Assembly (NCBI RefSeq): GCF_004216905.1
Contig: NZ_SGXJ01000002.1
Span: forward strand, 682,001 to 746,000
Source of the DNA: Kribbella sp. VKM Ac-2569
GTDB taxonomy: Bacteria; Actinomycetota; Actinomycetes; Propionibacteriales; Kribbellaceae
Reading direction: 5' to 3'
DNA length: 64,000 nt
A program made the translations under genes and the position numbers. The notes under the pieces were generated by a model. The model saw only the letters and a program-made list of their open reading frames with translations. It did no database searches and was not told where the DNA came from. Shown here piece after piece: positions 2,594 to 53,059 of this stretch (positions within the stretch are counted from its first letter, which is position 1; every line of letters begins with the position of its first letter).

Positions 2594-3265
2594 CTAGTGG
2601 AGCTCGTGGTGGCCTTTGCCTTTGAGTTTCTTGCCGTGGCGTTTGGCTGAGGACTGGCCGCCGACGCCGCCGAACAGGGCAAGGCCCTTGACCACGACGA
2701 CCGGCGCGTTCGGGTCCGGGTCGTCGCTGCCGCGGGCGCCGAAGCCGCCGAAGATGCCGACGCCCTCGTTGCGGACCGTCACGCCTTCCGGGACGGTGAT
2801 GTCGATGCCGCCGAACACCGCGAACGCCCAGATCGTCACCTCGCGGCCCTCGAAGACCGCGTTGGTCATGTCCAGATCGTGCCCGCCGAACACCGCGAAC
2901 GCATTCGTACGGCGCTTCACCCGCCAGCGGCCCTTCCGCTCGCCGCCGCCGAAGATCGCCACCATCGTGTCGAAGCTCTGCTCCGGGTCGGCCGGCTCCT
3001 CGATCGGCACCAGGCTGGTCGACGCGGCCGCGGCAGGCTGCGCCACTGGCGTCGGCTGACCGGGTACGACGAGGTCGCGGGTGATCGGCTCGAGCTCGCC
3101 GAGGGTCTTCGCCTCCAGGGTCTGCTCGAGACGCTCGGAGTGCTCCTCCTGCGTCAACCGGCCCGACATCAGGGCATCCCGCAGTACGTCGACCACCTGG
3201 TCACGATCGATGTCGGACGCCCGCAGATGTGCGTGCGGGTGCGGGCGGTCGGGCAGGTTCTCCAT
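2594..3265 (-). CDS. DUF1707 / LiaF-like C-terminal domain protein
   Basis: The product is 223 aa. Residues about 12-65 form a DUF1707 domain (LRASDIDRDQVVDVLRDAL, SGRLTQEEHSERLEQTLEAKT). A Pro/Ala linker follows, then a C-terminal beta-helix-like domain with repeated AVFGG/IFGG motifs (NAFAVFGGHDLD, FAVFGGIDITVPEG, VGIFGGFGARG, LALFGGVGG). This resembles the DUF2154/LiaF-C domain used in envelope-stress sensing. No membrane segment is evident. I chose the ATG immediately before ENLPDRP; the reading frame extends 37 codons further without homology. A perfect 12-nt palindrome lies 9 bp upstream of the start and matches the core of the operator before padR at 51.8 kb. The exact function is unknown. 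Confidence 0.8.
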   Translation of the reverse strand: MENLPDRPHPHAHLRASDIDRDQVVDVLRDALMSGRLTQEEHSERLEQTLEAKTLGELEPITRDLVVPGQPTPVAQPAAAASTSLVPIEEPADPEQSFDTMVAIFGGGERKGRWRVKRRTNAFAVFGGHDLDMTNAVFEGREVTIWAFAVFGGIDITVPEGVTVRNEGVGIFGGFGARGSDDPDPNAPVVVVKGLALFGGVGGQSSAKRHGKKLKGKGHHELH

Positions 3266-3273
3266 AAAACGGA

Positions 3274-3285
3274 ACGATATATCGT
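3274..3285. promoter_or_regulatory. putative PadR operator (ACGATATATCGT)
   Basis: This is a perfect 12-nt palindrome just upstream of the DUF1707/LiaF-like gene, overlapping its probable -10 region. Its ten-base core CGATATATCG is identical to the centre of the dyad upstream of padR at 51.8 kb. It is AT-rich in a very GC-rich background. PadR binding is inference. Confidence 0.55.
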
Positions 3286-50113: not shown

Positions 50114-51022
50114 GTGCAGGTTGTCGTCGGAGCTGGGGCCGTGGGGAGCGTGGTCGCCCGGCTGTTGGTGGCACGGGGTGAGCAGGTCCGAGTGATCACG
50201 AGGTCCGGAGGCGGGCCGGACGGGGCGGAGCGGGTCACCGCGGACGCCAAGAACGGGCTGACGGACTACGTCGCGGGCGCGACAGCGATCTACTCGTGCG
50301 CAGGCCCGCCGTACAACAAGTGGGCTAGCGAGTGGCCGCGGCTCGGTGCGGCTCTGGTCGCGGCAGCCGAGGCGTCGGGAGCGGTGCTGGTGAGCACCGG
50401 GAATCTCTACGGGTACGGCGCGGTGGACGGGCCGATGAGCGAAGACCTGCCGTTGCTGCCGAACACCGTGAAGGGGCAGGTGCGGGCGAAGGTCTGGGCC
50501 GCCGCCCTGGCCGCGCATCAGGCGGGGCGGATCCGGACCGCGGAGGTGCGCGGGTCCGACTACCTGGGTGCGGGCGCGGTCTCACCGTTCAGCGTGACGA
50601 TGTTGCCGAAGGTGATCGCCGGGAAACGCGGGATGATGCCGGGCGATCTCGACGTACCGCACAGCTGGACGTACGTCGGTGATGTCGCGCGGCTGCTGAT
50701 CGCGGTCGCCGACGACGAGAGCGCGTGGGGACGGGCCTGGCATGTTCCGACGCCGGAGCCGCTGTCGGTGCGCGAGCTGGCGACCAGCGCCGCCGAACTG
50801 GCGGGTGCGCCGCCGGCGAAGGTTGCGTCGATGCCTACCTTGGTACTGCGGCTTGCGGGACTCGTCGACCCGGCCGCGCGGGAGATGGTGGAGATGCTGT
50901 ACCAGTGGCAGCGGCCGTTCGTCGTCGACTCGACCGCCGCGACTGTTGCCTTCGGCATCAAGCCCACACCGACCGCCGACGCGCTCCGGGAAATGATCGG
51001 AAAGGGCAGGAATGAGCTCTAG
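50114..51022 (+). CDS. NAD-dependent epimerase/dehydratase family protein
   Basis: The 302-aa Rossmann protein has N-terminal GAGAVGSVVARLLVARGEQVRVITRS (GxGxxG variant), IYSCAGPPYNKW, LVSTGNLYGYG and VRGSDYLGAG. A substrate domain with LDVPHSWTYVGDVARLLIAV and HVPTPEPLSVRELA follows. The catalytic YxxxK is absent or moved (VKGQVRAKVW). GNLYGYG is typical of NAD(P)-binding isomerase-like proteins. The stop overlaps the DUF2993 gene by 11 nt. Confidence 0.85.
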   Translation: MQVVVGAGAVGSVVARLLVARGEQVRVITRSGGGPDGAERVTADAKNGLTDYVAGATAIYSCAGPPYNKWASEWPRLGAALVAAAEASGAVLVSTGNLYGYGAVDGPMSEDLPLLPNTVKGQVRAKVWAAALAAHQAGRIRTAEVRGSDYLGAGAVSPFSVTMLPKVIAGKRGMMPGDLDVPHSWTYVGDVARLLIAVADDESAWGRAWHVPTPEPLSVRELATSAAELAGAPPAKVASMPTLVLRLAGLVDPAAREMVEMLYQWQRPFVVDSTAATVAFGIKPTPTADALREMIGKGRNEL

Positions 51023-51731
51023 GAGACCGCGCCGGTGGTTGCGCCGCCTTGTCGTCACGCTGGTGGTGCTGGCGGTTCTGGCGATCGTCGTCGACCGCGT
51101 CGCCGCGTACGTGGCGGAGAACCAGCTCGCGTCGATGGCGGAGAAGGAGGCCAAGCAGTACGACGTACGCTCGGCCGGCACCTCGGTGAAGATCGGCGGC
51201 TTCGGGTTCCTGCCGCAGCTGATCAACGAGGACTTCTCCAAGGTCACGCTGACGATGGAGAAACCGACCTTCTCCGGCGTACCTGGTGAGGATCTGAAGG
51301 TCGAGCTGCAGAACGTGCACGTGCCGCGATCGCTGCTGACGCAGCAGTCCGGTGCGGTGACCGTCGACGCGACCGATCTGCGGCTGCAGTTGTCGCCGCG
51401 GGAGCTGGCTCGGCTCGCGGTGCGCAGTACCGGGCTCGAGGGGCTGTCGATGTCGGTCGTCAGCGGTCAGCTGCAGGCGAAGGCGACGGTGCGCGGCATC
51501 AGCATCGACGTACCGATCACGCCGCAGGTCAAGGACGGTCGGGTCGCACTGACGCTCGGGCAGTTGTCCGATTCGATCCCGTCGTACGTGCAGAGCGCGA
51601 TCCGCAGCCAGCTCGCCAGCGGCATCACGATCCCCGAACTGCCGTTCGGCGCCCAGCTCACCGGGATCAGCGTCGTGGACAACTCCGTCGTCCTGACCGC
51701 CGAGGTGAAGGACCTGAAGTTCAACGCGTGA
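51012..51731 (+). CDS. DUF2993 / LmeA-like lipid-binding envelope protein
   Basis: The 239-aa protein has a basic N terminus and one TM (RRLVVTLVVLAVLAIVVDRVAAYVAENQLA), then a long extracytoplasmic beta-rich domain typical of DUF2993 (VKIGGFGFLPQLINEDFSKVTLTMEKPTF, LKVELQNVHVPRSLL, VTVDATDLRLQLSPREL). LmeA of mycobacteria affects lipomannan/mannan elongation, so an envelope role is inferred. It overlaps the epimerase gene by 11 nt. Confidence 0.88.
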   Translation: MSSRRPRRWLRRLVVTLVVLAVLAIVVDRVAAYVAENQLASMAEKEAKQYDVRSAGTSVKIGGFGFLPQLINEDFSKVTLTMEKPTFSGVPGEDLKVELQNVHVPRSLLTQQSGAVTVDATDLRLQLSPRELARLAVRSTGLEGLSMSVVSGQLQAKATVRGISIDVPITPQVKDGRVALTLGQLSDSIPSYVQSAIRSQLASGITIPELPFGAQLTGISVVDNSVVLTAEVKDLKFNA

Positions 51732-51742
51732 GTCTCTTGGGT

Positions 51743-51779
51743 TGCGATCGTTCGCGATATATCGTCGAACTATCGCAAT
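51743..51779. promoter_or_regulatory. padR autoregulatory operator dyad
   Basis: A large nested dyad centred on 51761. Arms TTGCGAT (51743-51749) and ATCGCAA (51773-51779) enclose GTTCG (51751-51755) and CGAAC (51767-51771). The core CGATATATCG lies at 51756-51765, 33 nt before the padR GTG. The same core precedes the DUF1707 gene at 2.6 kb. PadR binding is inferred. Confidence 0.65.
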
Positions 51780-51797: not shown

Positions 51798-52505
51798 GTG
51801 GTCCAGATGACCGGATCGGCGTACGCCGCGGGCTGGCCTTGGGCGCAGTTCGCGCGGCACTGTTCAACCTTCGACGACATCAAGGACGAGTTGCGCGCGG
51901 CGATGAGCGGCCGCCGCGGGCACCAGGGACACAGTCACCAGCAGCACTTCGGGCCGCCGTGGGGCATGTTCGGCGGCGGGCAGATGTTCGGGCCGCCGTG
52001 GGGACCGCCGCCGCGCTGGCGGGGCCCGAAGGCGCGGCGCGGCGACGTACGGGCGGCGATCCTCGCCGTACTCGCCGAGCAGCCGATGAACGGCTACGGC
52101 ATCATCCAGGAGATCGCGGAGCGCAGCGGCGGCATGTGGAAGCCGAGCCCGGGCTCGATCTACCCGACGCTGCAGCAGCTCGAGGACGAGGGTCTGGTGA
52201 CGGCTGACGCGGAGGTCGGGCGGCGGACGTTCCGGCTGACCGACGAGGGACGTGCGTACGTCGCCGAGCACCAGGACGAGGTGTCCGCGCCGTGGGCCGC
52301 GATGAGCGCGCCGGCGGACGGTGACGACGAGAACGGGTTCAAGCCACTGTTCGGGCAGGTCGCGACGGCGATGTGGCAGATCTTGGCGAGCGGTACGCCG
52401 GAGCAGCAGGCGAAGGCGCGCGACGCGGTCGCCGACCTGCGCCGGAAGCTGTACGGCATCCTCGCCGAGGAAGACGACGGCACGGACCAGCAGGACCGTT
52501 CATGA
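51798..52505 (+). CDS. PadR family transcriptional regulator with His/Gly-rich N-terminal extension
   Basis: The 235-aa regulator has an unusual N terminus (about 1-75). It includes WPWAQFARHCSTFDDI, a His-rich RRGHQGHSHQQHFGPPWG and repeated FGPPWG. The PadR winged helix follows (RRGDVRAAILAVLAEQPMNGYGIIQEIAERSGGMWKPSPGSIYPTLQQLEDEGLVT). A C-terminal helical dimerisation part completes it. The GTG at 51798 follows GAGGGACGG; an ATG at 51807 is possible. The stop overlaps the downstream DUF1707 gene (ATGA). The operator upstream suggests autorepression. Confidence 0.9.
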   Translation: MVQMTGSAYAAGWPWAQFARHCSTFDDIKDELRAAMSGRRGHQGHSHQQHFGPPWGMFGGGQMFGPPWGPPPRWRGPKARRGDVRAAILAVLAEQPMNGYGIIQEIAERSGGMWKPSPGSIYPTLQQLEDEGLVTADAEVGRRTFRLTDEGRAYVAEHQDEVSAPWAAMSAPADGDDENGFKPLFGQVATAMWQILASGTPEQQAKARDAVADLRRKLYGILAEEDDGTDQQDRS

Positions 52506-53059
52506 GCCCCGCCGACCGGGACCGCCGACGCGGAGGCGGTCCCGGCAGGCGGCAAGGCTGGAACGGCCCGGGCTGGAGTGGTCCGGGCTGGTACGACGAG
52601 TCAGCCGGTGACTGGCGCGGTCGCGCGTGGAACCAGGCCGGCTGGGATCAGCCACAGGAGGCCGCGCGGGCCGACGTGCCTCGGAAGCGGGTGCGGATCG
52701 GTGACGCCGAACGGGACCAGGCCGTTTCGTTGCTGAGCGACCACTTCGTGGCCGGCCGGTTGACGCAGGTCGAGTTCGAGGAGCGGAGCGAGGTGGTGAC
52801 GCGGGCACGGTACGCCGATGATCTCGAGCCGTTGTTCGACGATCTGCCGAGCTCGACGGAACTGCGGGTCGTGCCGGGCCCCGCGAACCTCCGTCGCCGG
52901 CCCGGTCCGCCGCCGCCGTTCCTGATGATCGCGCCGTTCCTGATGATCGGTCTGGTGATCACCTCGGTCGCACTCACCGCTCCGTGGCTGCTCTGGGGCA
53001 TGTTCTGGATCGTCATGATCAGCGGCATGTCCCGCCGCCACTGGCATCACCACCGCTGA
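52502..53059 (+). CDS. DUF1707 membrane protein co-transcribed with padR
   Basis: The 185-aa protein starts with a Gly/Trp/Arg-rich disordered stretch (GRRQGWNGPGWSGPGWYD). The DUF1707 domain (about 65-115) is RIGDAERDQAVSLLSDHFVAGRLTQVEFEERSEVVTRARYADDLEPLFDDLP. Two hydrophobic segments follow (FLMIAPFLMIGLVITSVAL, WLLWGMFWIVMI), then a His-rich tail (RRHWHHHR). Its start overlaps the padR stop by 4 nt. Confidence 0.88.
   Translation: MSPADRDRRRGGGPGRRQGWNGPGWSGPGWYDESAGDWRGRAWNQAGWDQPQEAARADVPRKRVRIGDAERDQAVSLLSDHFVAGRLTQVEFEERSEVVTRARYADDLEPLFDDLPSSTELRVVPGPANLRRRPGPPPPFLMIAPFLMIGLVITSVALTAPWLLWGMFWIVMISGMSRRHWHHHR

Follow-up and report, generated by a model that had tools for sequence, protein, structure and literature searches.

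The closest described counterparts of the system discussed here are LltR and LstR of Listeria monocytogenes, which are autoregulated PadR repressors encoded in operons with small membrane or envelope proteins; in an lltR mutant, expression was found to be raised for lltR itself and for one DUF1700 and one DUF4097 gene, and mildly also for liaI/liaH (PMC6624303). More widely, HAAS-PadR dyads have been tied to phage-shock and toastrack systems, and proteins with a toastrack domain (the C-terminal domain of LiaF) as well as SHOCT-like domains have been described among the components associated with them (PMC11237479).

A comparable arrangement occurs in the window, the 64-kb stretch of Kribbella DNA that was analysed here. 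The gene of a PadR-family repressor, padR1 (51807-52505, plus strand; PF03551, E 2e-21), is followed by a DUF1707 gene (52502-53059, plus strand) that overlaps its stop codon (ATGA) and encodes a protein with a hydrophobic C-terminal part; the two genes adjoin in the Kribbella loci that were scanned. Far away, on the minus strand, a gene at 2594-3265 encodes a DUF1707-LiaF protein of 223 aa, composed of a SHOCT-like DUF1707 domain (PF08044, E 6e-19) and a LiaF-like C-terminal (toastrack) domain (PF09922, E 6e-8), both above cut-off, and orthologues with an ATG start are present in 38 of 38 Kribbella genomes. The sequence-only reading, according to which both regulated loci encode DUF1707 proteins, was borne out by PF08044 matches with E values of 6e-19 and 2e-20 (68.2 and 72.8 bits, cut-off 27.6). 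The LiaF C-terminal domain reaches 33 bits against a Pfam cut-off of 29, whereas the NCBIfam LiaF profile gives 26.5 bits against a cut-off of 57, and the N-terminus of the protein consists of DUF1707 rather than of the membrane part of LiaF. An LmeA-like phospholipid-binding protein is encoded immediately upstream of padR1 (51012-51731); in some relatives a different gene occupies this position.

A perfect 12-nt palindrome, ACGATATATCGT, is present at 3274-3285 ahead of the DUF1707-LiaF gene, as had been noticed earlier, and is a candidate PadR operator of this gene. The 10-mer inside it, CGATATATCG (3275-3284), is separated by 9 nt from the ATG at 3265 and recurs 48 kb away at 51755-51764, where it would be the core of an autoregulatory operator. 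The occurrence of the same core at two loci in the window is confirmed, with two matches against 0.02 expected and no shuffle that gave two. In the whole 8.43-Mb genome three copies were counted against one for the reversed control; this bare number is barely above chance and is weak evidence, but the placement of the copies is strong evidence, as they precede the DUF1707-LiaF gene, padR1 and a second padR gene (padR2). The 37-nt dyad that had been described before padR does exist as an imperfect dyad, TTGCGAT...ATCGCAA, but its position is 51742-51778 instead of 51743-51779, and the 10-mer is not exactly central in it since the outer arms pair about base 51760, half a base away from the centre of the 10-mer. 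Within the genus, the part TCGCGATATATCGTCGA..TATCG is better conserved, the outer left arm is not retained throughout, and the DUF1707-LiaF site is devoid of the outer arms found in padR promoters.

The significance of the placement becomes clear from a comparison of 38 Kribbella genomes. These hold 81 copies of CGATATATCG (sum over the table), against 6 of the reversed control, and the core is neither common nor unrelated to gene starts: 74 copies precede padR1 (38), the DUF1707-LiaF gene (21) or padR2 (15), and the 7 copies elsewhere are at about background level. The 12-mer ACGATATATCGT occurs 17 times against none for the reversed control, in all cases before one of these three genes, and when one mismatch was allowed in six close genomes the same promoters were found plus one stray. 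No further targets were detected above background with the exact 10-mer in the 38 genomes, nor with the one-mismatch 12-mer in the six close ones. Since the copies are almost confined to these promoters, the regulon that can be read from the core is very small. Apart from the genome count of three against one, which could be taken to suggest chance coincidence of a 10-mer, the comparative data speak against such an explanation: 21 genomes share the 10-mer at 8-9 nt from the start codon while the flanks have diverged. We attach next to no probability to coincidence, which the placement in the genus and the conservation in the clade contradict.

Promoter anatomy gives an indication of what the palindrome may do. 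Upstream of padR1, a putative -35 hexamer TTGGGT (51737-51742, plus strand) is located 17 nt before TATCGT (51760-51765, plus strand), a proposed -10 hexamer which lies within the operator and forms the right half of the palindrome. TTG-N17-TATCGT is shared without exception by the 50 distinct padR promoters of Kribbella and resembles a promoter of the sigma-70 type whose -10 box is overlaid by the operator. At the DUF1707-LiaF gene, TATCGT (3274-3279, minus strand), again the right half of the palindrome, is separated from the ATG by 8 nt, or by 7 nt in three genomes, with no ribosome-binding site visible upstream of the start codon, which suggests that it is the -10 hexamer of a leaderless transcript. 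No TTG was found in this promoter at -35 distance. An ECF-type promoter was rejected for this gene, as inspection by eye revealed no GGAAC at a suitable distance.

The same anatomy raises the question whether the sequence at 3274 is a mere -10 box of a leaderless gene, palindromic by accident and with no role for a PadR. TATCGT, or a variant differing in one or two bases (TATTGT, TATTCT), indeed precedes the ATG in 38 of 38 orthologues, including the 17 that lack the palindrome, and TATCGT is also found before a Nonomuraea orthologue. The left half, however, is not needed by a -10 box, and its history differs from that of a plain promoter. On a tree of two concatenated proteins from the 38 genomes the full palindrome requires two changes, the simplest placing being a single gain of the left half (CGATA) in a clade of 24 genomes (SH-aLRT support 97) and a single loss in three of these (G005, G035 and G036). 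Inside this clade, the five columns of the left half underwent 5 parsimony changes, mostly due to the one loss, against 19-36 changes in each of sixteen stretches of equal width taken from the flank upstream; in the 14 genomes outside the clade the same columns show 18 changes, much like flank. Such constraint only where the palindrome exists is expected of an operator and not of a plain promoter. Since strong conservation of the left half is confined to a single clade, and since the same 10-mer otherwise occurs in the genus almost only at padR promoters, we regard an accidentally palindromic -10 box as improbable. The palindrome is present in 21 of 38 DUF1707-LiaF promoters and missing in 17; the padR1 core is found in 38 of 38 genomes. 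The DUF1707-LiaF site is not general in the genus and is an addition to an older putative -10 box. A PadR-type repressor very probably docks at the palindrome common to both promoters.

With respect to the identity of this repressor, the third genomic copy of the core is important, because its location before a paralogous padR implies that the regulon may be common to two PadR proteins. PadR2 has 46% identity to PadR1 over 142 residues (PF03551 scores 67.1 and 76.2 bits, respectively, cut-off 27), and the two proteins have almost the same recognition segment (PSPGSIYPTLQQLEDEGLV vs PSPGAIYPTINQLEDEGLV), which makes cross-binding by PadR2 at the DUF1707-LiaF site plausible. It could even be proposed that the palindrome is an operator of PadR2, or of both proteins, with the wiring running from PadR2 rather than PadR1 to the DUF1707-LiaF gene, and the 12-mer at 3274 is in fact identical to the padR2 site. 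Yet padR1 with its operator core is present in 38 of 38 genomes, as against 20 for padR2. The DUF1707-LiaF palindrome occurs in nine genomes from which padR2 is absent, and padR2 in eight that lack the palindrome. Most members of the clade, moreover, have T as the flanking base, where the padR2 site has A. We therefore consider wiring through PadR2 unlikely, and the presence/absence pattern disfavours PadR2 as the only binder. PadR1 is the likelier and simpler candidate, as nine genomes retain the site without padR2. In both PadR proteins the winged helix is preceded by a long N-terminal extension in which Gly, Pro, Arg and His abound (encoded at 51807-52040 for PadR1 and at L095:2324-2500 for PadR2); such an extension is unusual among PadR proteins and may be a sensing or disordered segment.

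The core is by no means restricted to Kribbella. It was found in 221 of 297 genomes of the class, against about 26 for the control; a padR gene is located within 1.5 kb of 20 out of 30 sampled core sites and near 17 of 20 further sites from several other families. This spread, together with the padR genes beside most sampled sites, makes CGATATATCG look like a general PadR operator of the Actinomycetia. A literature search, in which subscription journals were thinly covered, yielded no paper describing its general use by PadR proteins. Outside the genus, one core (L241 of G190, site at 1242) lies ahead of a DUF4097 (toastrack) gene, an independent link between the core and a toastrack protein. 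Members of other families (L146, L148, G131, G154, G185, G277) have two copies 25-29 nt apart, which suggests paired operators. In other families, ATGs that follow the core and seem to be leaderless were dismissed as mostly accidental, since the padR gene is on the opposite side.

Taken together, we consider it likely that CGATATATCG serves as core operator for a widespread actinomycete PadR subfamily and that PadR1 represses both the padR-DUF1707 operon and the distant DUF1707-LiaF gene. From promoter anatomy and studied PadR proteins (LltR, LstR), we infer that a PadR dimer binds the palindrome, the downstream half of which is the -10 hexamer TATCGT, and when bound makes the -10 box inaccessible to RNA polymerase. 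PadR1 would in this way repress its own operon and, in the Kribbella clade to which this genome belongs, also the leaderless DUF1707-LiaF gene, until an inducer, for which envelope stress or a ligand would be plausible, frees both targets together; a role in envelope stress is plausible in view of the domain content and the published links of SHOCT-like and toastrack domains with PadR. The small PadR regulon linking two DUF1707 loci, as originally suggested, is well supported as regards the shared predicted operator, which has near-exclusive placement, clade conservation and a class-wide padR link, with the amendments that possibly two PadR proteins take part and that the DUF1707-LiaF site is confined to part of the genus. 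The regulatory prediction is small, solid and of a familiar type. It provides a testable operator for a large group of actinobacterial PadR repressors that has mostly gone unstudied, ties two uncharacterised DUF1707 proteins into one predicted regulon, which offers a handle on their envelope role, and makes the DUF1707-LiaF promoter a clean case in which a -10 box has been extended into a predicted repressor site. More tentatively, and with somewhat more doubt than belief, it can be envisaged that this PadR subfamily uses one common promoter-embedded operator throughout the Actinomycetia and that envelope-stress genes (DUF1707, toastrack) enter its regulon in individual lineages through completion of the palindrome at an existing TATCGT -10 box; the Kribbella DUF1707-LiaF gene would then illustrate a single gain of this kind, followed by a single loss, on a branch that is resolved.

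PadR1 is a member of the PadR family (PF03551), with no claim to the phenolic-acid subgroup. The classical operator of phenolic-acid PadRs is ATGT-N8-ACAT, and between 51730 and 51790, where the conserved core is CGATATATCG, no ATGT/ACAT pair was found at this spacing. The palindrome in its own promoter is a PadR trait that padR1 displays in every Kribbella genome compared. The winged helix of PadR1 aligned with that of the Mycobacterium tuberculosis PadR-family protein Rv3488 (PDB 5zhc; residues 76-155, E 2.4e-7), and the score of 31.8 bits with the Rv3488 equivalog profile is under the curated cut-off of 140, so the Kribbella protein is not an Rv3488 orthologue. Unlike in the HAAS-PadR dyads, the operon partner of padR1 has no HAAS domain, since a Pfam domain search for one (DUF1700/DUF1048 type) found only DUF1707; as in those dyads, the PadR is encoded beside a small membrane-associated partner, and toastrack and SHOCT-like components are present. 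The partner also differs from the DUF1700 and DUF4097 proteins of the LltR and LstR systems, and the proposed second target is 48 kb away, but Kribbella padR1 shares with lltR and lstR its position in an operon with a small envelope protein and its predicted autoregulation.
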